Notes under the pieces: generated by a model
Told to the model about the DNA's origin: nothing
Database searches by the model: none
Seen by the model: the letters and a program-made list of their open reading frames with translations, nothing else
Translations under genes and position numbers: made by a program
Source: Thermococci archaeon
GTDB taxonomy: Archaea; Methanobacteriota_B; Thermococci; Methanofastidiosales; B48-G16
Direction: 5' to 3'
DNA length: 9,419 bases
NCBI GenBank assembly: GCA_030668905.1
Contig: DAOVEQ010000024.1
Coordinates: 1-9,419, forward strand
Shown here: positions 1 to 9,418 of the stretch, one piece after another
Numbering within the stretch: position 1 is the stretch's first letter
Layout of the letters: the number at the start of each line of letters is the position of its first letter

Positions 1-875
1 ATAGCTGCTTGAGCTGCCAGTGTTTCAAGCAATCTCTGATCTATTTCTGCGAAAGCATTAAGTTCTTCGCTTTCAGCGTCTATAACACCAATAACTTTAT
101 TCCTGATCTTTATAGGTACAGATAACTCTGATTTAGCCTCTTTGGTACTTAAAAGATATCTTTTATCCTTTCTCACATCTGGAACATTCAATGTTTTCCC
201 TGTTCTCGCAACGTAAGCAGTAATGCCTTTCTCACCGGATAGCGGAATTCTCTCATATATCTTACGTTCTTTCCATCCCATAGATGCTATCGGATGCAAC
301 TCATTTGTCTCTTCATCTAATAAAAATAAATCAATATAATCAAAATTCAGAACTTTTTCAGTGGCATCTAAGATAATTTTGGAGATCTGATCTAAATCTA
401 AACTCAGACTCATTTCTCTTGATAGATCATATATTGCAGAAAGCTTTCTCTCCGTCTCTCTTTGCGGAGTGATGTCTTCATACGTTACAAACTGTTTTCC
501 ATCCTTCAGAGTAACGGGTACGAATTGTATTTCCTTTTTTGAGCCGTCCTTACATGTTACCGTAAATATACGTGGCCTTGATTCACCGATTCCTGCTTTT
601 TTAAAATCATTTATCCAGCATGCAAGAACTTCCTTTCTGTATTCTGGATCGGGATATGACTTTTTAAACCAATCTTTACCTGTGGGAGTATCTTCTAATG
701 TATATCCAAACATTTCTGTAAATTTTGGATTTATATATTCATATATGCCTTCTTTGCTTATAATGCTGATACCAAATGGAGAATTTTTTGCCAGTGATTT
801 GTATTTTTCTTCCGACTCTATCAATTCCCTTGTTCTTTTCTCAATATCACTTTCTTTTTTCTTTTTATTACTCAT
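1..875 (-). CDS. PAS-GAF sensor protein, probably a histidine kinase, N-terminal part (runs off left edge)
   Basis: Translating the minus strand from the ATG at 875-873 gives 291 codons with no stop, open at base 1. Residues about 1-20 are highly charged (MSNKKKK, then Lys/Glu-rich) and look like a short coiled-coil lead-in. Residues about 21-137 form a PAS domain, with the typical opening EEKYKSLAKNSPFGI, a YINPKFTEMFGYTLED stretch and the closing VTYEDITPQRE signature. Residues about 145-291 form a GAF domain, with GEKGITAYVARTGKTLNVPD near 214-233 and LSVPIKIRNKVIGVIDAES near 251-269. This PAS-GAF order usually precedes a HisKA/HATPase kinase core, which would lie beyond the left edge; that part is inferred. 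No transmembrane segment is visible, so it should be a cytoplasmic sensor. The start is supported by GAGAGGA (889-883), seven bases upstream of the ATG. It is transcribed away from the polymerase gene. Ligand and output are unknown. Confidence 0.85.
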   Translation of the reverse strand, partial: MSNKKKKESDIEKRTRELIESEEKYKSLAKNSPFGISIISKEGIYEYINPKFTEMFGYTLEDTPTGKDWFKKSYPDPEYRKEVLACWINDFKKAGIGESRPRIFTVTCKDGSKKEIQFVPVTLKDGKQFVTYEDITPQRETERKLSAIYDLSREMSLSLDLDQISKIILDATEKVLNFDYIDLFLLDEETNELHPIASMGWKERKIYERIPLSGEKGITAYVARTGKTLNVPDVRKDKRYLLSTKEAKSELSVPIKIRNKVIGVIDAESEELNAFAEIDQRLLETLAAQAA

Positions 876-1042
876 TTTATTATCCTCTCGATCTTTCGTG
901 ATCTTGCATGTAATAACAGCATTGTTGAGAATATATCATATTTACTGTTGTTTAAGAAGTATATATGGTTTTCTCTTTATTTGATGCAACTTGCTACAAA
1001 ACTTCACTATGTAATCAATACCTATAAAAATTATGCAGATAA
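876..1042. promoter_or_regulatory. Divergent intergenic promoter region between sensor gene and polymerase gene
   Basis: This 167-base AT-rich gap separates two genes reading away from each other, so it should hold both promoters. On the minus strand a TATA-like stretch at about 929-937 (GATATATT read on that strand) would place transcription start near 909 and leave a short leader carrying the GAGAGGA ribosome site. On the plus strand there is an upstream TATATAT run at 959-966 and a better-placed TATAAAAA at 1023-1030. No RNA gene or small ORF is convincing here. The assignments rest on spacing and base composition only. Confidence 0.45.
1023..1030 (+). promoter_or_regulatory. TATA box candidate for the DNA polymerase gene
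   Basis: TATAAAAA is centred about 25-26 bases before the ATG at 1052 and only about 16 bases before the ATG at 1043. Archaeal TATA boxes lie about 25-27 bases before the transcription start. This box would therefore start the transcript at or next to 1052, making a leaderless mRNA beginning at the fourth codon of the longer reading frame. No Shine-Dalgarno site precedes either ATG, which fits leaderless translation. This depends on the organism being archaeal. Confidence 0.5.
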
Positions 1043-3304
1043 ATGGTATTGATGAAAGGTTTTATAATCCATCCAACATACGAGATTAGAGGTAATATAG
1101 TTTTTGTTAAATTATACGGCAGGCTGGAGAACGGAGAAAGCTTTTTGTGTTTAAAAGAATACAAACCGTACTTTTTTATCAGGGAAAAGGATCGTTCTAC
1201 AATTGAGAACCTCGATTATGAAAAAACAGAGTTTGTAAACTTTTCAAAAGAGAAAGTCGTAAAAGTATATACAAACATCCCTTCAGATGTTAAAAGTCTC
1301 AGAAGAGAGTTTGAAAGAAATGAAATAGAGTGCTATGAGGCAGATATACGATTTGCTTATAGATTTTTATTTGATCGTGATATATATGCGGTCATAGACA
1401 TAGAAGGAGAGTACACTGACGGGGGAAGAGTGAACAGAGTCTATAAAAACCCGGAAATAGTACCTTCTGGGGGAGATATAACGCTTAAAGTACTTTCGAT
1501 GGACATAGAAGTGAATGAAGAAATGGGAGAGGTGGTCTGTGTCAGTTTTTACAATGGAAAAGAATATAAAAGTCTTATAATTAAAAAAGAGATAGAAAAA
1601 TCAACGTGCTGTTCTAACGAAAAAGAATTGCTCCTGGAACTTAAAAAGTATATAATAAAAGAAGATCCAGATATTATTATAGGCTGGAATGTCATAGATT
1701 TTGATTTCAAGTATCTTGAAAAGAGGTTTTCAAAGCATAAACTCTCTTTTGATATGGGAAGATCTGAAAGAAGTACGAGATTAAGAACAGAGAGATCATT
1801 TATCAGAGCTTCGAGAGTAAAACTCGACGGAAGGATGGTTCTTGACGGAATGTATCTGGTGAGAGATTTTGCTGTAAAACTTGAGGATTATAAACTGGAT
1901 ACAGCTGCTTTCGAAGTTTTGGGAGAAAGAAAAATTGAGATCGAGAAGGATATCCATAAGATCTTTGAGCAAGACCCTGAAAAACTCTTGGAGTATAACA
2001 AAAAGGATGCTGAGCTCGTTTACAATATCCTCAAAGAAAAAAAGCTCATCGAGTTCACAAAAAAGATGGCAGGGATAACGGGATTGCAACTGGATAGAGT
2101 AAAGGGATCTATTGCATCTTTTGATTCGTTATACTTGAGAAGAGCTAGAAAGAGAGGAATAATCTGCCCTTCAGTCGCAGGAGGAGAAAGGAAGCATGTT
2201 ATTGGTGGCCTTGTCAGAGAGCCTTTATATGGTATATACGATCATGTTCTTCTCTTCGATTTTCGGAGTCTATATCCCTCGATAATGGTAACAATGAATA
2301 TTGATCCTATGACATTTACAGAAAAAAAAACAAAGATAAAAGCTCCGAATGATGTTTACTTCAAAGATGAGAAGGCCATCCTTCCTGAGATAATCTTAGA
2401 ACTTATGGAAAAGAGAAAAAAAGTGAAACATATATACGAAGAGCAGTACGCTATCAAAATTATCATGAACTCCTTTTTCGGTGTTCTCGGAAATCAAAAC
2501 TGCAGGTTCTATAACTCAAAGATTGCAAATGCGATAACTGCATTCGGGAGATCTTTTTTGAACCTGACAACAAAGAAAGTCGAAGAAATGGGATATAAAG
2601 TTATATATGGTGATACAGATTCGATTTTTGTTGTTTCGAATGCTACAAATTATGAAGAAGCAGAAAAAATAGGAAAAGAGATCGAGAAAAATATAAACGA
2701 GTTTTATGATTTGCACGTCACAGAGAATTACGGGACAAAAAATTACCTCATACTTGAGTTCGAGAAGCTGTATGAAAAGTTTTATCTCCCAAGACAGAGG
2801 CATCTGGAAAAAGGTGCAAAGAAGAGATACGCAGGATTAATGAGAGGAAATCTGGATATAGTAGGATTAGAATATGTGAGGAGAGACTGGACAGATCTAG
2901 CCAAAGAGTTTCAGTACAATCTATTAAAAAAAGTATTTTTGAGTGAAGATTACGAAACGTATATAAAAGAAACGGTAAAAGACCTAAAATCCGGTAAACT
3001 TGATTCTCTTTTAATTTATAAGAAAGGGGTAAGAAAAAATCTGGAATCTTACACAAAAACAACGCCACCACACGTGAAAGCAGCAAGAAAACTCGAGAAT
3101 TTTAAGGACAGGGTCATAAAGTATGTGATGACAAAGAATGGACCAGAACCTATAGAAAATTTAGGTAAAGTAAAGATAGATTACGATCACTATATAGAAA
3201 AACAGTTAAAACCGATAGCAGATTCTCTTTTAATTTTTTTTGACACGAGTTTTGATGAGATCGTCACTGAAAAAAAGCAGGTAAGCCTGGAGGATTTTTT
3301 ATGA
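1043..3304 (+). CDS. polB: Family B DNA polymerase, E. coli Pol II-like, with intact 3'-5' exonuclease
   Basis: Template-directed DNA synthesis with proofreading. All family B landmarks are visible (numbering from 1043). Exo I is LSMDIE with D154 and E156, Exo II is WNVIDFDF at 215-222 with D219/D221, and Exo III is YNKKD with D322. Polymerase motif A is DFRSLYPS at 406-413, motif B is KIIMNSFFG at 472-480, YGDTDS is at 522-527, and the KKRYAG DNA-contact motif is at 593-598. The stretch between motifs A and B is short (LPEIILELMEKRKKVKHIYEEQYAIK), lacking the longer fingers helices of typical archaeal PolB. From motif B onward the text resembles E. coli Pol II: GVLGNQNCRFYNSKIANAIT, YVRRDWTDLA, TPPHVKAA, then NGPEP followed by YDHYIEKQLKPIA. 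Length (753, or 750 from 1052) is slightly below the usual 780 or so. The ATG at 1052 is the likelier start on promoter spacing. Whether it is the replicase or a repair/translesion enzyme cannot be told; Pol II similarity favours repair or bypass. It overlaps the next gene by ATGA. Confidence 0.95.
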   Translation: MVLMKGFIIHPTYEIRGNIVFVKLYGRLENGESFLCLKEYKPYFFIREKDRSTIENLDYEKTEFVNFSKEKVVKVYTNIPSDVKSLRREFERNEIECYEADIRFAYRFLFDRDIYAVIDIEGEYTDGGRVNRVYKNPEIVPSGGDITLKVLSMDIEVNEEMGEVVCVSFYNGKEYKSLIIKKEIEKSTCCSNEKELLLELKKYIIKEDPDIIIGWNVIDFDFKYLEKRFSKHKLSFDMGRSERSTRLRTERSFIRASRVKLDGRMVLDGMYLVRDFAVKLEDYKLDTAAFEVLGERKIEIEKDIHKIFEQDPEKLLEYNKKDAELVYNILKEKKLIEFTKKMAGITGLQLDRVKGSIASFDSLYLRRARKRGIICPSVAGGERKHVIGGLVREPLYGIYDHVLLFDFRSLYPSIMVTMNIDPMTFTEKKTKIKAPNDVYFKDEKAILPEIILELMEKRKKVKHIYEEQYAIKIIMNSFFGVLGNQNCRFYNSKIANAITAFGRSFLNLTTKKVEEMGYKVIYGDTDSIFVVSNATNYEEAEKIGKEIEKNINEFYDLHVTENYGTKNYLILEFEKLYEKFYLPRQRHLEKGAKKRYAGLMRGNLDIVGLEYVRRDWTDLAKEFQYNLLKKVFLSEDYETYIKETVKDLKSGKLDSLLIYKKGVRKNLESYTKTTPPHVKAARKLENFKDRVIKYVMTKNGPEPIENLGKVKIDYDHYIEKQLKPIADSLLIFFDTSFDEIVTEKKQVSLEDFL
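3289..3293 (+). promoter_or_regulatory. Shine-Dalgarno site of the corrinoid adenosyltransferase gene, inside polB
   Basis: GGAGG lies seven bases before the ATG at 3301 and within the last codons of the polymerase gene. With the four-base ATGA overlap it points to translational coupling of the two genes on one transcript. Confidence 0.7.
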
Positions 3305-3816
3305 AAGGGTTGATTGAGGTGTATACCGGAGATGGTAAAGGAAAAACAACAGTAGCTCTAGGGATCGCTTTCAGGGCTTTAGGCCATGGGTATAAAGTCT
3401 ACATGATCCAATTCATGAAAAGTGTTTGTAGTGGCGAGTGTATACAGGCAGCAAAAACCAAGAATTTTAAGATAAAATCCTTTGGACGAGCATCGTTTGT
3501 TAATAAAGATAATCCAGATCCTTTAGATATAGAATGTGCTAAAGAAGCTTTGAATTTTGCTAAAGAGATTGTAATTGAAGGAAAATATGATATAGTTATT
3601 TTGGACGAGATAAATGTGGCACTGGATTTCAAACTAATAGATATTGCAAATGTTATTAATTTGATAAAAAATAAGCCTGATCACGTAGAATTGATCTTTA
3701 CGGGGAGGCATGCGCCCCAAGAAATTATAGATGTAGCAGATCTAGTATCTGAGATAAAAGAGATAAAACATCCGTTATCGAAAGGAGTTTCATCAAGAAA
3801 AGGAATAGAATATTAA
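3301..3816 (+). CDS. cobO: ATP:corrinoid adenosyltransferase (CobA/CobO/BtuR family)
   Basis: Transfers the 5'-deoxyadenosyl group of ATP to the reduced cobalt of a corrinoid, giving the adenosylcobalamin form used by radical mutases. The family is recognised from its P-loop GDGKGKTT at residues 10-17, the following ALGIAFRALGHGYKVYMIQFMK at about 19-40, the central IVILDEINVALDF near 98-110, the LIFTGRHAP segment near 130-138 and the C-terminal KEIKHPLSKGVSSRKGIEY. At 171 residues it is the usual length for family members without the longer N-terminal extension of the E. coli and Salmonella enzymes. The start is fixed by the GGAGG at 3289-3293. It shares four bases with polB, so the two are co-expressed although their roles have no obvious link. 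A B12-dependent mutase-like gene lies 1.5 kb downstream and could use its product (inference). Confidence 0.92.
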   Translation: MKGLIEVYTGDGKGKTTVALGIAFRALGHGYKVYMIQFMKSVCSGECIQAAKTKNFKIKSFGRASFVNKDNPDPLDIECAKEALNFAKEIVIEGKYDIVILDEINVALDFKLIDIANVINLIKNKPDHVELIFTGRHAPQEIIDVADLVSEIKEIKHPLSKGVSSRKGIEY

Positions 3817-3930
3817 ATATAATTATAATTAATAATTTCCGTACTCAACACTTCTCTTATTACACCAAAAGCTTTTTATAGTTTAATGAACAATATATAA
3901 TAATTGTAAAATAAAGAACGTTAAATAGAG
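3817..3930 (+). promoter_or_regulatory. AT-rich intergenic region: end of polB-cobO transcript and start of the next transcription unit
   Basis: This is a 114-base gap with no gene. Just after the stop codon is a perfect 12-base palindrome, TAATTATAATTA (3820-3831), a possible operator or simply low-complexity sequence. A T5 run at 3873-3877 could act in archaeal-style termination. A TATA-like element follows at 3893-3900. No GC-rich hairpin terminator is visible. Confidence 0.4.
3893..3900 (+). promoter_or_regulatory. TATA box candidate for the winged-helix/opine dehydrogenase/mutase operon
   Basis: ATATATAA is centred about 34 bases before the ATG at 3931, which predicts a transcript starting near 3922 with a very short leader. 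No good Shine-Dalgarno site precedes the ATG, consistent with a near-leaderless message. CAAT and ATTG arms (3891-3894 and 3903-3906) flank the box and could be a weak operator overlapping it. A bacterial -10 reading (TATAAT at 3896-3901) is also possible. Confidence 0.4.
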
Positions 3931-4176
3931 ATGAAACACTTGGATATAAAAACCCTTCCATACGAAATCAAAAGAAATCCAGCAGCTTTGCTGGTGCTTT
4001 TGTACTTAACAGAAAAAGGAGATTCCAATTCCATCGGATATATTGCTCGAGAGATTGGTTTTACAGAAGCTGCAGTATCAAAAAGTGCTGACAAATTAGT
4101 CAAGTATAATTTAGTTGAAAAATCCTACGGTAAGGGGAATTTAGGTAAGAGAAAAACTCTACTTAGAATAAAATAA
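3931..4176 (+). CDS. Small winged-helix DNA-binding regulator (MarR-like)
   Basis: An 81-residue protein made almost only of a winged helix-turn-helix. Residues about 14-28 (NPAALLVLLYLTEKG) form the first helix, about 34-45 (SIGYIAREIGFT) the second, and about 46-61 (EAAVSKSADKLVKYNLVEKS) the recognition helix. The basic stretch near 65-80 (KGNLGKRKTLLRI) forms the wing. The arrangement matches small archaeal and bacterial MarR/ArsR-type domains, which bind DNA as dimers. There is no visible ligand-binding domain and no cysteine for redox or metal sensing. It is first in the second plus-strand gene set, 38 bases before the opine-dehydrogenase-like gene, and probably controls its own promoter and that cluster; this role is inferred from position. 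Its start lacks a Shine-Dalgarno site but is the only ATG that covers the whole domain. Confidence 0.75.
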   Translation: MKHLDIKTLPYEIKRNPAALLVLLYLTEKGDSNSIGYIAREIGFTEAAVSKSADKLVKYNLVEKSYGKGNLGKRKTLLRIK

Positions 4177-4189
4177 TCTATATCTAAGA

Positions 4190-4200
4190 CTCTTTCTATT
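4190..4200 (+). repeat. 11-base spacer repeat, copy 1 (CTCTTTCTATT)
   Basis: The identical 11 bases occur at 6941-6951, and both copies are in short spacers directly before genes of the same cluster. This copy lies 14 bases before the ATG of the opine-dehydrogenase-like gene. It is pyrimidine-rich, so it may be an operator, a pausing or termination tract, or coincidence. Confidence 0.35.
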
Positions 4201-4204
4201 TAGT

Positions 4205-4210
4205 AGGTGA
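4205..4210 (+). promoter_or_regulatory. Shine-Dalgarno site of the opine-dehydrogenase-like gene
   Basis: AGGTGA lies four bases before the ATG at 4215. It supports that start, which also places the nucleotide-binding glycine motif at the very N-terminus as expected for the fold. Confidence 0.65.
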
Positions 4211-4214
4211 AGTT

Positions 4215-5288
4215 ATGAGAATAGCTGTTTTAGGTGCCGGTAACGGCGGACAGGCTCTTGCTGGATATCTTTCATCCAAAGGCTTTTCCGTCGCTCTATA
4301 TAATAGAAGTGAAAAGAGAATTAAGAGAGTAAAGGTAAATGGAGGAATTAATTTAAGTGGATTGTTTAAAGGATTTGTAGATCTAGAGATTATAACAACA
4401 GATATCAAAAAGGCAATTGAAGATGTTGATTTAATTATGGTAGTTTTACCTGCGCAGGCACACAGATTCATTGCAAAGACATGCGCACCTCATCTTTCAG
4501 ACGAACAGATTATAGTTTTGAACCCGGGAAGAACTGGTGGAGCTTTAGAATTTCAGAATATCCTCAAAAAAAATGAAGTGAAGGAGAGAATATATCTTGC
4601 AGAAGCTCAAACTTTTCTCTTTGTCAGTCGAGTAATAGACCCAAAAGTGAAGATATTAGGGGTAAAAAATTCTGTTCCTGTCGCTGCTTTACCATCTTCA
4701 GATACTAAAAAAGTAATCAATGAGTTAAAAAATCTGCATGAATCTTTTAAAGAAGCAAAGAATGTATTAGAAACAAGTTTGAATAATATAGGTGCAATAT
4801 TTCATCCTTCTACCATGATTCTCAATATTGGCAGGATCGAATCAAAAGAAAGATTCAATTATTATTTTGAAGGAATAACTCCTCAAATTGCAGATTTTTT
4901 GGAAAGAGTGGATAATGAAAGGAGAATGATTGCTCGTGAGCTCGATGTTAAGGCGTTATCTGCAAGTGATTGGCTTAGGGAGGTCTATAATGCCAATGGG
5001 GATTCCCTGTACGAACTTATTCAGGATACCGAGAAGTATGAGGGGATAGGATCGCCTGAGTTTTTGAAACATCGCTATATTTTTGAAGATATTCCTACAG
5101 GCCTTATACCTATGGCCTCTCTGGGTAAACTGCTCGGAGTTCAAACACCATTAATTAATAGTGTTATCGGTATTGCCTCTCAGTTCTACAGAGTTGACTT
5201 TATGAAGAAAGGCAGGACTGTAGAGAGCTTGGGTTTGGAAGGAAAAAATAAGCAGCAAATCATTGATTATGTAAATGGAGGTGAGTAA
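4215..5288 (+). CDS. NAD(P)-dependent octopine/nopaline (opine) dehydrogenase family protein
   Basis: Family members reductively join the amino group of an amino acid to a 2-oxo acid using NAD(P)H, or run the reverse; the substrates here are unknown. Residues 1-30 are a Rossmann start, RIAVLGAGNGGQALAGYL, with the GAGNGG loop at 7-12. YNR at 29-31 follows the second strand, and the Arg there favours NADP(H). LNPGRTGG at 102-109 is typical of the family. The C-terminal domain carries NNIGAIFHPS (190-199), whose H197 matches the catalytic histidine, and RYIFEDIPTGLIPM (287-300), whose D292 would be its acidic partner. Length (357) fits the family. The gene follows the winged-helix gene by 38 bases and ends one base before the mutase-like gene, so the two enzymes are almost certainly co-translated and should act in one pathway. 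Broader relatives such as ketopantoate reductase are less likely because the HP and EDIPTGL motifs are present. Confidence 0.85.
   Translation: MRIAVLGAGNGGQALAGYLSSKGFSVALYNRSEKRIKRVKVNGGINLSGLFKGFVDLEIITTDIKKAIEDVDLIMVVLPAQAHRFIAKTCAPHLSDEQIIVLNPGRTGGALEFQNILKKNEVKERIYLAEAQTFLFVSRVIDPKVKILGVKNSVPVAALPSSDTKKVINELKNLHESFKEAKNVLETSLNNIGAIFHPSTMILNIGRIESKERFNYYFEGITPQIADFLERVDNERRMIARELDVKALSASDWLREVYNANGDSLYELIQDTEKYEGIGSPEFLKHRYIFEDIPTGLIPMASLGKLLGVQTPLINSVIGIASQFYRVDFMKKGRTVESLGLEGKNKQQIIDYVNGGE
5277..5284 (+). promoter_or_regulatory. Shine-Dalgarno site of the mutase-like gene, decides its start
   Basis: GGAGGTGA is a near-perfect anti-16S match. It overlaps the ATG at 5275 and lies five bases before the ATG at 5290. 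Only the second ATG has proper spacing, so translation should begin at 5290, one base after the stop of the upstream gene. Confidence 0.8.
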
Positions 5289-5289
5289 T

Positions 5290-6927
5290 ATGAGTAAAAT
5301 TTTAGCTGCATCAATTGGAAGCTGCGTCCATGTGGCCGGAACTATAAATTTTCTTACCATAGCTGAAAAGCTCGGTTATGAAACAAAGTTTTTAGGTCCT
5401 GCCGTTCCAGTAAAGAAACTTATAGAAGAAGTTCTAGAATATAATCCAGATATTATTGGAGTTTCTTATAGACTTACTCCAAAGAATGCTAAGATTTTGT
5501 TGGATGAATTAAAAACATACATAGAAAAATATGATTTAAAAGATAAAAGATGGATCTTCGGAGGTACTGTTCCTGTCGCTAAAGTTGCAAGAAAAATGGG
5601 AATTTTTGAAGCTATTTTTACAGGATTGAGCACGATGGAGGACAGCATAGCTTATCTTAAAAGAGAAAAAGTAAAGCATAAGAAAGAGTACTATCCCAAT
5701 AATTTAATTGAAAGAATTATTTTAAAGAAACCATTTCCTATTATTCGTCACCATTTTGGATTGCCATCTCTTGAAGAAACTATAGAAGGGATAAAGAAAA
5801 TTGCGCGGGCAAAAGTAGTAGACATTATTTCTATTGCGCCAGATCAGAATGCACAGGAAAGTTTCTTTCGTCCTCACGAGATGACAAAGGAAGAAGGTTC
5901 AGGGGGGGTACCCCTGAGAAAGAAAGAAGACTTTTTGAGTTTGTATCAGGCATCGAGATATGGAAATTACCCTCTACTAAGATGTTACAGCGGCACAAGA
6001 GATTTGATAAAAATGTCCGGGCTTTTATATGAAACTATAAACAATGCCTGGACCGCGACACCTTTGACATGGTATAGTATACTCGATGGAAGGAGCAAAA
6101 GACCACTGAAATCAGCCATTATAGAAAATCAACTCAATATGGAATGGAATGCGCAGAGAGGAATTCCGGTAGAGGTTAATGAATCCCATCAATGGTCTCT
6201 AAGAAATGCTCATGACACTCTTGCAGTTGTGATGGCGTATCTTGCAGCCTACAATGCCAAAAAAATGGGCGTAAAGCACTATATTTCTCAATATATGTTT
6301 AACACACCTTTAGGAACCTCCCCTGCAATGGATTTGGCAAAGATGTTGGCTAAAATAGAGCTTATCGAGTCTTTACATGATGATAACTTCACATCTTTAA
6401 GAGAGGTAAGAGTTGCTGGACTTCTAAGTTATCCCGTCGATCCTGATTTTGCAAAAGCTCAACTGGCTTCTTCCGTATATCTGAGCATGGCTGTCAATCC
6501 AGATATAGTCCATGCTGTCTCTTATAGTGAAGCAGATCATGCGGCCACACCAAAAGATGTAATTAAAACTTGTAAGATCGCAAAAAGAATAATCCAAAAT
6601 TGTTTGATGGGAATGCCAGATATGACAAAAGATCTAAGAGTACTTCAAAGAAAAGATGAACTGCTTCACGAAGCAAATATACTGCTTTATGCAATAAAAT
6701 CACTTGGAAAAGAAGAAGATCCTTTTATTGATCCAGAGGTATTAGAAAAAGCTGTAAAAATTGGATTGCTTGACGCTCCTCAACTAAAAGGTAATCCCGT
6801 AGCAAGGGGCGAAATTAAGACAAGAATCATAAACGGAGCTTGTTTTGCAGTAAACAAAAAAGGAGAGAATATCAAGGAAGAGGAGAGAGTTCAACAGACT
6901 TTGGAGGAAGTTATCTATGAGAGTTAA
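5290..6927 (+). CDS. B12-binding domain fused to a glutamate-mutase-E-like barrel; putative adenosylcobalamin-dependent mutase of unknown substrate
   Basis: A 545-residue protein. Residues 1-130 have the B12-binding fold: strand KILAASIG, loop CVHVAG at 12-17, helix INFLTIAEKLGYE, IIGVSYRL near 55-62 and FGG at 90-92. The usual DxHxxG cobalt-ligand motif appears as CVHVAG, so the ligand His (H14) is kept while Asp becomes Cys. Residues about 170-520 resemble the barrel subunit of glutamate mutase (MutE/GlmE). Examples are YSGTRDLIKM for its RHGT..SRLL segment, a KSAIIENQLNMEWNAQRGIPVEVNE segment, and a C-terminal SEADHAATPKDVIKTCKIAKRI helix-turn region ahead of RIINGACFAVNKKG. In this by-eye alignment Arg149 of the Clostridium enzyme falls on Tyr233, and Glu171 and Tyr177 are not kept, so the substrate is probably not ordinary glutamate. 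Glutamate mutase normally has separate S and E chains; here they are one polypeptide. Paired with the opine-type dehydrogenase. Confidence 0.75.
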   Translation: MSKILAASIGSCVHVAGTINFLTIAEKLGYETKFLGPAVPVKKLIEEVLEYNPDIIGVSYRLTPKNAKILLDELKTYIEKYDLKDKRWIFGGTVPVAKVARKMGIFEAIFTGLSTMEDSIAYLKREKVKHKKEYYPNNLIERIILKKPFPIIRHHFGLPSLEETIEGIKKIARAKVVDIISIAPDQNAQESFFRPHEMTKEEGSGGVPLRKKEDFLSLYQASRYGNYPLLRCYSGTRDLIKMSGLLYETINNAWTATPLTWYSILDGRSKRPLKSAIIENQLNMEWNAQRGIPVEVNESHQWSLRNAHDTLAVVMAYLAAYNAKKMGVKHYISQYMFNTPLGTSPAMDLAKMLAKIELIESLHDDNFTSLREVRVAGLLSYPVDPDFAKAQLASSVYLSMAVNPDIVHAVSYSEADHAATPKDVIKTCKIAKRIIQNCLMGMPDMTKDLRVLQRKDELLHEANILLYAIKSLGKEEDPFIDPEVLEKAVKIGLLDAPQLKGNPVARGEIKTRIINGACFAVNKKGENIKEEERVQQTLEEVIYES

Positions 6928-6988
6928 GTGCTTAAAAATCCTCTTTCTATTATATGAAAAATGTTATCCTAGAGGGAGATGTGGATAA
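6928..6988 (+). other. Spacer at the composition break, with possible promoter and 12-codon mini-ORF
   Basis: This 61-base gap separates the AGA-rich genes from the CGN-rich cyclase gene. It contains the second copy of CTCTTTCTATT (6941-6951), a TATTATATG stretch (6948-6956) that could serve as a TATA element for a transcript starting near 6979, and GAGGGAGAT (6972-6980) as ribosome site for the ATG at 6989. An ATG at 6954 opens a 12-codon frame (MKNVILEGDVDK) whose TGA overlaps the next start as ATGA. It could be a coupling leader or chance. Confidence 0.35.
6941..6951 (+). repeat. 11-base spacer repeat, copy 2 (CTCTTTCTATT)
   Basis: Identical to 4190-4200. This copy sits 13 bases after the stop of the mutase-like gene and 37 bases before the cyclase gene start, so its distance to the downstream start differs from that of copy 1. 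Confidence 0.35.
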
Positions 6989-8074
6989 ATGACAGCTTAT
7001 ATAGAAGCGGTCGCTGGGGATATAGATCGGCTGATCACTATAGATATAAATCGCCGCGATGTAATTCAGGCGTTATATCAAGCGGCACGGATGAAAATCA
7101 AGCGTCCACTTGTCTTGGCATCTGCAGAAGCACTAGCTAAGGATATTTCTCCTGGTTCTGTTGTGTTTATTGCCACTGGCTGGCCAGATCGTCCCTGGAT
7201 TTCATCGAAGATCGGCGAGTTAGATGGCCCTCCAGGTGCTGCACTCTTGGCACGGAGTCTACACCGTATTTTAGGTGCCGTTCCATTTTTTCTGATCGAG
7301 GAAGAACTGCAGCATGCAATGAAGGCTACAGCACGTGCTGTTGGTTTTGCTGTCCTGCCACCTGACCAAGCTATAGCGGCATACCGCTCATCCGCTCCCC
7401 TTCATGCAGCTTCCGTGCTTGGATTTCCTACTGAGATCCCCCAAGCTATCGCAGAGTCTCAACGGCTGATTAGTACTTATCATCCAACGGCTATGATCGC
7501 CATCGAAAAGGGAAGTGCTAACGAGAAGGGTATTATCCATAACGCACGCGGTATGGATACTACAGCATGCATGGCAAAGGTAGACGAACTGGTGAAAGAA
7601 TCCCATCGATCCGGGATCATAACAATTGGTATTGGCGATGGGGGAAACGAGATAGGCATGGGATTGATTGCTGATGCTATACGAGCTCATGTACCATATG
7701 GGGCACGATGTGCATGCCCGTGCGGAGCAGGCATTGCTCCCTCAGTATGTACTGATATGTTAGTGACTGCGAGCGTTTCCAACTGGGGGGCGTATGGTGT
7801 TGCTGCGTGCTTAGCTGTGTTAAAAGGCCAAGTAGATGGGCTTCACGACGAGGAAGTGGAACGACGTACGCTCCGTGAGGCTGCCGACGCTGGTCTCATC
7901 GATGGTAACACAGGATATGTGGATCCTGGTGCAGATGGAATACCTGCAAGGACGCATGTTGCCATGATCACCGTACTCAGACAACTTGTCATTAACGCAA
8001 TCTCACCGAGGGGATTAGCACTTGAAAAAGAGGTGGGGCTGCAGAGAGATAGAAATAGGAAGGAGGAGATATAA
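6989..8074 (+). CDS. D-glutamate-cyclase-like protein (DUF4392 family)
   Basis: The family is named for the mammalian mitochondrial D-glutamate cyclase, which dehydrates D-glutamate to 5-oxo-D-proline. The diagnostic core is visible: AIEKGSANEKGIIHNARGMD (171-190), AKVDELV (196-202), ITIGIGDGGNEIGMG (211-225) and SVSNWGAYGV (262-271). An N-terminal segment with VVFIATGWPDRPW (58-70), ELDGPPGAALLAR (77-89) and a second Rossmann-like half completes the fold. The length (361) is a little above the bare domain. A cysteine cluster, CACPCG (241-246) plus C254, lies between the glycine-rich loop and the SNWG motif and might bind metal or stabilise the fold. The first 18 arginines are all CGN codons and the last six (residue 321 onward) all AGR, unlike the AGA-only genes upstream; this suggests transfer. 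It ends exactly where the next gene begins (TAAATG). The actual substrate is unproven and may be a modified glutamate made by the upstream enzymes. Confidence 0.82.
   Translation: MTAYIEAVAGDIDRLITIDINRRDVIQALYQAARMKIKRPLVLASAEALAKDISPGSVVFIATGWPDRPWISSKIGELDGPPGAALLARSLHRILGAVPFFLIEEELQHAMKATARAVGFAVLPPDQAIAAYRSSAPLHAASVLGFPTEIPQAIAESQRLISTYHPTAMIAIEKGSANEKGIIHNARGMDTTACMAKVDELVKESHRSGIITIGIGDGGNEIGMGLIADAIRAHVPYGARCACPCGAGIAPSVCTDMLVTASVSNWGAYGVAACLAVLKGQVDGLHDEEVERRTLREAADAGLIDGNTGYVDPGADGIPARTHVAMITVLRQLVINAISPRGLALEKEVGLQRDRNRKEEI
8061..8066 (+). promoter_or_regulatory. Shine-Dalgarno site of the asparagine-synthetase-like gene
   Basis: AGGAGG lies eight bases before the ATG at 8075, inside the last codons of the cyclase gene. 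It fixes the start at 8075, which matters because that start puts Pro, not Cys, at position 2. Confidence 0.85.
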
Positions 8075-9418
8075 ATGCCAGGAATTGCAGGAATTGCAGA
8101 GTCAGGAAGGAGTACACTAGTTGAAGAGATGCTGAATAAGATCAAACATCGTGGTGGAGCCGGACGTAAAGTCATTGAAGTTGAAGATGAAACACTCGGT
8201 ATCGTCTGGACAAAATCTCAGGAAAGTTCAATAGGAAATCAAATCTCAGATCAGAGTGTCCGAGATTATGTGGATGAAGGGCATTTTGCAGAAGCCTGTG
8301 TGAAAAACGGTAGATTGATGCTTATGCGCGATCCTCTGGGTATTGCGCCGCTCTATTACGGAAAAACTGAAGATGGTGTGTTGTGTTTTGCTTCAGAAGT
8401 AAAAGCATTGCTGGAAGTCACGCATGATATCCACGAGCTTCCACCAGGTTGTCGTTACGATGGCAGTCGTATGGAAAGGTACTTTTGTTTGCAAAAACAG
8501 CCACCAAGTGATGAAACTCCTGAGCATATAGCTAAAGAGTTGTATCTACGCCTAGCTGCCTCGGTAGAAAAACGTATCAGAGGGGATGTAGCGGGTTCGT
8601 GGCTTTCTGGAGGACTGGATTCAAGTGCATTGGCTGCTCTTGCCCGTCCCCATGTAGAGACACTTCACACATTTGCCGCAGGTTTTCCTGATGCTCCCGA
8701 TATAGAGCGTGCTCGCGAGGTCGCTGATTTTATAGGATCGAATCACCACGAGGTCATTGTCAATTTTGATGAATTGCTTGCTGTTTTGCCCACGGTAATT
8801 TATCACTTAGAATCATTTGACGCTCTGCTAGTGCGTTCAAGTATAACTAACTATCTGGTAAGTAAAGCTGCATCGAAGCATGTACCGACTGTATTTTCTG
8901 GAGAAGGCGCTGATGAGCTGTTTGCAGGTTACGATTATCTTAAATCTCTCGATATTTCTATGTTACCTGATGAGTTGATTGATATTGAAAATAGACTGCA
9001 CAACACTGCTCTCCAGAGAGTAGATCGTAGCGCATCGGCCCACGGACTAATAGCTCATGTGGGATTTCTAGATTCTGAAGTAGTGGATTATGCACTGCGT
9101 ATCCCAGCCAAGTTCAAACTTTATAATGGCATGGAGAAATGGATTTTGCGCAGAGCGATAGATGAGAAATTGCCGAAAGAAATAGTGAACAGAAAAAAAG
9201 CTAAGTTTTGGGAAGGTGCCGGAGTGAGTGAGCTGCTGGCACAATATGCCAACGAACATATTACTGACGATGAGTTCAAAGATGAACGAACATTACTCAA
9301 TGGAGAGGTAATTAATACCAAAGAAGAACTGATGTATTACAGGATATTCCGCAGACATTTCGGAGATTTAACAGATATTTCTTGGATGGGTCGAACAAAA
9401 GGTGCACCTAAGCAGTAA
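8075..9418 (+). CDS. Asparagine-synthetase-like amide ligase lacking the glutaminase cysteine
   Basis: Asparagine synthetase B activates a carboxylate with ATP and forms an amide. The C-terminal synthetase domain is intact: PP-loop SGGLDSS at 178-184, SGEGADELFAGY at 275-286, HVGFLDSEVVDYALRIP at 328-344 and the KWILRRAIDEKLP helix at 355-367. The Glu in SGEG (E277) matches asparagine synthetases, whereas beta-lactam synthetases have Tyr there. The N-terminal glutaminase domain is degenerate. The protein starts MPGIAG instead of MCGIAG, so the nucleophilic cysteine is absent. The HRG signature is at residue 25 instead of about 49, and the domain is shortened, though RDPLGIAPLYYG (85-96) and FASEVKALLE (105-114) remain. 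Length is 447 against about 500-600. It should use free ammonia or another amine, possibly a cluster product, and not glutamine. Arginine codons are mixed (18 CGN, 10 AGR). It directly abuts the cyclase gene, and the stop is one base before the window edge. Confidence 0.88.
   Translation: MPGIAGIAESGRSTLVEEMLNKIKHRGGAGRKVIEVEDETLGIVWTKSQESSIGNQISDQSVRDYVDEGHFAEACVKNGRLMLMRDPLGIAPLYYGKTEDGVLCFASEVKALLEVTHDIHELPPGCRYDGSRMERYFCLQKQPPSDETPEHIAKELYLRLAASVEKRIRGDVAGSWLSGGLDSSALAALARPHVETLHTFAAGFPDAPDIERAREVADFIGSNHHEVIVNFDELLAVLPTVIYHLESFDALLVRSSITNYLVSKAASKHVPTVFSGEGADELFAGYDYLKSLDISMLPDELIDIENRLHNTALQRVDRSASAHGLIAHVGFLDSEVVDYALRIPAKFKLYNGMEKWILRRAIDEKLPKEIVNRKKAKFWEGAGVSELLAQYANEHITDDEFKDERTLLNGEVINTKEELMYYRIFRRHFGDLTDISWMGRTKGAPKQ

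Follow-up and report, generated by a model that had tools for sequence, protein, structure and literature searches.

A candidate amino-acid-modifying gene cluster around an opine dehydrogenase and a B12-binding mutase-like protein in a Thermococci archaeon

Introduction

Few B12-dependent carbon-skeleton mutases have proven substrates. The related B12-dependent aminomutases (OraE, KamDE) are marked by a PLP-binding lysine. The PylB-PylC-PylD logic of pyrrolysine synthesis combines a skeletal mutase, an amide ligase and a dehydrogenase, and that pathway uses a radical-SAM mutase and an ATP-grasp ligase. For glutamate mutase, an excerpt of one study gives the residues of the glutamate-binding arginine claw and E171 of GlmE (PMC9545868), while excerpts of two others describe a Glu/Asp/Glu cluster that contacts the amino acid in human asparagine synthetase (PMC6748925) and a DUF4392 domain that belongs to mammalian D-glutamate cyclase (PMC5339696). 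The described arrangement nearest to ours is a putative operon of thermophilic anaerobic bacteria, Hore_09740-Hore_09750, which likewise pairs an octopine dehydrogenase with a B12-binding protein; the passage concerned leaves it unexplained and differs from our case in that it gives no function, mutase fold, ligase, cyclase or archaea (PMC2626281). Here, we analyze contig DAOVEQ010000024.1 of a Thermococci archaeon (hereafter the window, 9,419 bases, the entire contig), in which a small regulator gene precedes genes for an opine dehydrogenase (ODH), a B12-binding protein with a mutase-like barrel (B12M), a D-glutamate-cyclase-like protein (GLUCM) and an AsnB-like amide synthetase.

We find that ODH and B12M are nearly fixed neighbors across archaeal genomes and that an AsnB-like ligase lacking the glutaminase cysteine recurrently joins them. 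B12M belongs to a large family that, where the claw of glutamate mutase would be, conserves other residues than the eight GlmE-type rows aligned. The dehydrogenase partner and the recurrent amide ligase provide testable clues to its substrate. We read the regulator and the four enzymes as one small biosynthetic pathway from an amino acid to a rearranged, N-substituted amide or lactam, to which we give an even chance. If true, this would mean new small-molecule chemistry in Theionarchaea-like and probably Asgard archaea.

Results and Discussion

The dehydrogenase and the B12 protein form a recurrent pair

The original prediction placed the regulator and the four enzyme genes in one direction with gaps of 1, 61 and 0 bases between the enzymes, and open reading frames (ORFs) and Pfam matches agree with it (Table 1); the first gap is 1 base if B12M starts at 5290, its likely start. 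Among 115 genomes of the window's phylum, 13 match most of the B12M protein (including G007, where the match is split over two contigs, and G008, where it is cut by the contig end), and ODH adjoins B12M in all 13, in G013 as two frames. From a larger group in a second phylum we further used an even sample of 195 genomes; this phylum is probably Asgard archaea, as B12M relatives among the matches listed bear the names Thorarchaeota, Hermodarchaeota and Promethearchaeota. Of the 195 genomes, 75 contain a match to B12M that scores more than 100 bits. The loci that were read number 73, one from each of 60 of these 75 genomes plus the 13 of the first phylum, with the window not counted. In 68 of them, ODH and B12M are same-strand neighbors (47 with ODH first, 21 with B12M first). 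As for the other five, ODH lies four ORFs away in L119, and B12M is broken or at a contig end in L046, L104, L106 and L139. The prediction had taken rare adjacency of homologues as the mark of a false cluster; adjacency is not rare, as shown by this pairing and by the Cys-less AsnB-like genes found within four ORFs of B12M in eight second-phylum genomes (see below). Plasmid records contained no B12M, and their matches to AsnB, GLUCM and ODH were all below 60% identity.

ODH carries the PF02317 domain of opine dehydrogenases and keeps G7, G9 and G12 of the NAD motif as well as His197 and Asp292 (in 68/68 and 66/68 aligned rows, respectively), which we take to be the catalytic pair. The closest solved structure by sequence is 1bg6, N-(1-D-carboxylethyl)-L-norvaline dehydrogenase (CENDH; 1.9e-78, query residues 3-345 aligned). 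ODH differs from CENDH in being nearly always paired with a B12 protein, and opine chemistry is ascribed to it on the strength of its family. The earlier statement that no described pathway with this gene set is known holds for the four-gene set, which is not dealt with in the papers listed by our searches (judged by titles and abstract openings), but not for the ODH-B12 pair, which the Hore_09740-Hore_09750 passage already has in print (PMC2626281).

B12M resembles glutamate mutase in fold and differs at the glutamate-binding positions

B12M is a single chain of 550 residues with a B12 domain at about residues 5-133 and, in the predicted model, a GlmE-type barrel at 139-538, giving it the predicted fold and domain content of glutamate mutase (GlmE/GlmS/GlmL). 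As in the E. coli O157 cluster, a corrinoid adenosyltransferase is encoded close by; a further likeness is a GlmL-type protein that lies beside one B12M relative (G397) and is fused to another (G525). Glutamate mutase, however, has separate S and E subunits, whereas B12M is one chain, and its DxHxxG motif reads CVHxxG in B12M; across 191 rows, H19 and G22 occur in 189 (2 gaps), and the first position is C in 182, D in 7 and a gap in 2. The glutamate-binding residues are changed as well. When the B12M profile was aligned with eight GlmE-type rows, GlmE R66 fell on H160 and R100 on Q194 (each in 191/191 rows), and E171 fell on P263, within a gapped stretch; the counterpart of R149 was ambiguous by one residue and that of R236 was one residue off. 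The arginine claw and E171 are therefore not kept. The claim that the known relatives of all four enzymes act on glutamate or aspartate is accordingly weakened at B12M, although the ligase, with its AsnB-type acidic cluster, still agrees with it.

A comparison (hhalign) of B12M with one GlmE alone gave 0.5% probability, the alignment above having been obtained with the eight rows, and a PDB search with profile A4 returned no GlmE. At E 0.001, the window's B12M has no mutase Pfam match of its own; Met_asp_mut_E is matched by 22 of 45 aligned family rows, and of 396 archaeal genomes, 8 matched PF06368 at E 0.001, none of them above the cut-off. B12M-family matches number 5,600 among 7,999 candidates scored, some perhaps not full relatives, and the nearest named relatives among the matches listed are from Theionarchaea and Methanofastidiosia. 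The fused relative of G525 (L182, G525:C109:1-3687) forms a single open frame of 1,217 residues together with its MutL-type domain.

A ligase without the glutaminase cysteine recurs near the pair

The AsnB-like protein has the PP-loop (SGGLDSS) and the Glu/Asp/Glu cluster of asparagine synthetase B (E277, D280 and E281, kept in 120/120 rows) and lacks its N-terminal Cys nucleophile, with a short N-terminal domain and Pro2 in place of the glutaminase Cys. The rows comprise the window protein plus the 120 listed out of 4,538 matches except one, the window's own copy P0121, so that 119 of them were used; column 2 is S in 80, A in 26, G in 5, T in 4, P in 3 and a gap in 2, i.e., Cys in 0 of 118. 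By sequence, AsnB is the nearest structure family (2.4e-70 vs 6.6e-23 for 1jgt). The PP-loop synthetase domain is common to AsnB (1ct9) and to the beta-lactam (1jgt) and carbapenam (1q15) synthetases, but the ligase differs from AsnB in its short N-terminal domain, its missing Cys nucleophile and its genomic partners. Beta-lactam synthetase, which has a Tyr-Glu catalytic dyad, presumably also does without the Cys. We give no weight to a TT-to-LL change in the AsnB pocket, because the canonical AsnB of G397 has 'PAL' there.

An AsnB-family match occurs in 114 of the 195 second-phylum genomes, in which the 15 best places were followed up. One (G397:C282) is canonical with Cys, and the 14 without it form two well-separated clades, one of 7 short proteins (44-65% identity) and one of 7 long proteins (33-37%). 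Eight of the 14 are encoded at most four ORFs from B12M (short: G397, G418, G431, G478 and G502; long: G446, G544 and G576), adjoining ODH or B12M on the same strand in G397, G431, G478, G502 and G544, and separated from ODH-B12M by a divergent regulator in G418. Since G431, G478 and G502 are of one genus, the independent lineages are fewer than eight. Assuming 2,500 genes per genome, the rough chance of such proximity is 1.7e-12 for the short clade (5/7; 1.4e-7 for 3/5 lineages) and 1.1e-6 for the long clade (3/7). In G486, G542 and G525, ligase and B12M are on different contigs.

Two of these AsnB-like loci, from two families, L173 (G435, 1493-3831) and L157 (G502, 2832-5237), come with a nucleotidyltransferase, a CDP-alcohol phosphatidyltransferase and a xylose-isomerase-like barrel, genes that resemble components of a route to an inositol-phosphate solute or lipid.

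The cyclase and the two-layered cluster

GLUCM aligns with all of PF14336 (positions 1-291/291) and has no match to a second Pfam family at E 0.001, which means that a DUF1445 part is absent; the DUF4392 domain of D-glutamate cyclase is present. Three of its cysteines, C241, C243 and C245 (CxCPC; residues 241-245, window 7709-7723), are invariant in 24/24 aligned proteins and may form a metal site. On a contig of G435, a GLUCM of 68.6% identity is followed after 26 bases by an AsnB of 63.8%, and the regulator there is 58-70% like one beside ODH-B12M in four genomes of its family, with no B12M near the ligase. Contig-length coincidences among the listed homologues numbered 3 for B12M-AsnB (6,649; 16,746; 92,640), 7 for AsnB-GLUCM and 1 for B12M-GLUCM, compared with means of 0.65, 1.07 and 0.65 (maxima 4, 5 and 3; B12M list 119/120) in shifted controls, and are suggestive only as a sign of shared contigs. 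Elsewhere, L183 (G094:C1:1240000-1254000) holds a full-length GLUCM (38%) with an aminotransferase, a truncated racemase-like frame and frames resembling, by eye, 2-oxoacid oxidoreductase and succinyl-CoA synthetase; it looks like glutamate or pyroglutamate catabolism.

Several observations weigh against a single pathway of all four enzymes. The sibling genome G003 (same genus) matches window positions 1-6920 at 91.4% (blastn) and then differs after the B12M stop, and guanine-plus-cytosine (GC) content changes from 0.37 in ODH and B12M to 0.50 in GLUCM and 0.435 in AsnB. No AsnB match was found in the incomplete genomes G001-G003, the sibling G003 among them. GLUCM matches occur in 9 of the 195 second-phylum genomes, only the one of G435 being close, and the 73 loci read showed no GLUCM. 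In 68 of these loci, no AsnB-like gene was seen up to seven ORFs away or to the end of the stretch available (only 21 of the 73 extend for seven ORFs on either side), for which reason the core probably works without this ligase. The ligases of G446 and G576 face the other way, at distances of two and four ORFs, respectively; in G456, it lies ~440 kb from B12M on one contig; and G514 has a ligase with only a B12-domain match, its Cys-less AsnB relative (L177, G514:C126) having two acidic cluster residues changed (E to D, D to N). Finally, 78 of 79 genomes, the window's own included, have no MutL match reaching the cut-off. The predicted cluster thus stands insofar as its parts recur as neighbors, but not as one ancient unit. 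ODH-B12M is probably the core, and ligase and cyclase probably a tailoring layer gained by transfer.

These data also fit two unrelated modules, where a core pair with its own, perhaps catabolic, role received a horizontally acquired GLUCM-AsnB segment that merely landed behind it. The GC step at the junction, the other downstream DNA of the sibling and the many loci that show neither tailoring gene favor this possibility, which we consider real though not probable: ligases of two separate clades lie close to B12M in 8 of 14 ligase genomes, against the low chance figures given above.

Proposed pathway and alternatives

We prefer the single biosynthetic pathway because the ligase would spend ATP and lacks the glutaminase cysteine. 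The chemistry that we infer is as follows. CobO would make adenosylcobalamin, with which B12M would initiate a radical reaction that rearranges the carbon skeleton of a non-glutamate amino acid. Using NAD(P)H, ODH would couple the amino group of the B12M product to a 2-oxo acid, as in opine chemistry. The AsnB-like ligase would adenylate an aspartate-like amino acid at its side-chain carboxylate. Because this enzyme should be unable to draw nitrogen from glutamine, the carboxylate would be joined to free ammonia, to an external amine or to an amine within the same molecule. GLUCM would open or close a five-ring lactam, and the MarR-like protein may sense a pathway compound.

A bolder version, which we regard as rather unlikely, is an undescribed archaeal natural-product or cofactor pathway analogous to pyrrolysine synthesis: A B12-dependent radical mutase acting on a new class of substrate would yield a branched amino acid, a glutaminase-dead AsnB (an ATP-grasp enzyme in other lineages) would form the amide bond, and the opine dehydrogenase would couple or cyclize. 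The likeness to PylB-PylC-PylD is one of logic only; the enzymes differ, and no homology is claimed.

Amino-acid fermentation appears less likely still. Here, B12M would rearrange an amino acid, ODH would deaminate or split opines, and GLUCM would feed in pyroglutamate-type lactams. The 2009 authors of the bacterial operon suggest, in the passage concerned, adaptation to hot anaerobic settings (PMC2626281), and a cluster in the window's own genome with relatives of ODH and GLUCM, as well as an alanine-racemase-like gene before B12M in three loci, would suit such a role, but an ATP-consuming amide synthetase would be ill-suited to catabolism.

That B12M is a true glutamate mutase, with the locus making or using 3-methylaspartate (e.g., 3-methylasparagine by the ligase), we rejected as very improbable: the GlmE fold of the model, the GlmL neighbor and fusion, and the aspartate-type acidic cluster of the ligase are in its favor, but H160, Q194 and P263 stand where GlmE has R66, R100 and E171. 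An assembly artefact joining two organisms at 6928-6988 is most improbable of all, for although homology and GC break sharply there and the contig ends one base past the AsnB stop, the adjacency of ODH-B12M-AsnB and of GLUCM-AsnB in other genomes, just the genes that an artefact is unlikely to join, led us to reject a chimera, and a 96% GLUCM in other data (P0241) is a mild argument against contamination.

Other features of the window and neighbors of the pair

The original prediction named its genes correctly but did not include the CobO gene just upstream, which ends 114 bases before the regulator, occurs at the same position in G003 and, by sequence, is the likely supplier of adenosylcobalamin. 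The regulator has relatives of 94% in G003 and of 72% in G020, the latter adjoining ODH-B12M. Rfam and tRNA scans of the window found nothing. The source genome is 70% complete, in 223 contigs.

Table 1. Features of the window, in order of position.
Feature	Position	Strand	Evidence or remark
PAS/GAF sensor protein start, off contig edge	3-875	-	sibling copy 1,548 aa with histidine-kinase ATPase domain
B-family DNA polymerase	1043-3304	+	upstream of CobO
CobO/BtuR-type corrinoid adenosyltransferase	3301-3816	+	PF02572 9.6e-62; TIGR00708 equivalog above cut-off
MarR-like winged-helix regulator, 81 aa	3931-4176	+	PF12802 (MarR_2) 1.4e-6
Opine dehydrogenase (ODH), CENDH-like	4215-5288	+	PF02317 (Octopine_DH) 5.2e-45
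B12M, B12 domain and predicted glutamate-mutase-E-type barrel	5275-6927	+	Pfam B12-binding 5e-8; predicted model
Junction, end of sibling homology at B12M stop	6921-6988	.	blastn and base composition
GLUCM, D-glutamate-cyclase-like	6989-8074	+	PF14336 (GLUCM-like_C) 5.3e-69; gap 61 after B12M
AsnB-like amide synthetase without glutaminase Cys	8075-9418	+	PF00733 (Asn_synthase) 7.1e-66; gap 0 after GLUCM

The paralogue cluster of the window's own genome (L047, G000:C179:1-8000) comprises a carbamoyltransferase, ODH2 (33%), a threonine-synthase-like pyridoxal-phosphate (PALP) enzyme, GLUCM2 (42%), an aminotransferase and an Asp/Glu racemase; L048 of G003 is a similar cluster. Around the core pair, where most neighbors were named by eye from their first residues and some were scanned, a Ddl-like ATP-grasp gene lies near ODH-B12M with an NAD-synthase gene in G019 and G020, and with an alanine-racemase-like gene in three genomes of family f57. 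The alanine-racemase-like gene is 5' of B12M in its three loci (one of the three Pfam-scanned). Such neighbors, which vary by lineage and include the biotin genes named next, would suit a core whose product enters different tailoring steps, or may simply be housekeeping genes. In four loci of f132 genomes (L143, L147, L149 and L150; one of the four Pfam-scanned), a biotin carboxylase gene and a biotin carrier gene come immediately 3' of ODH-B12M.

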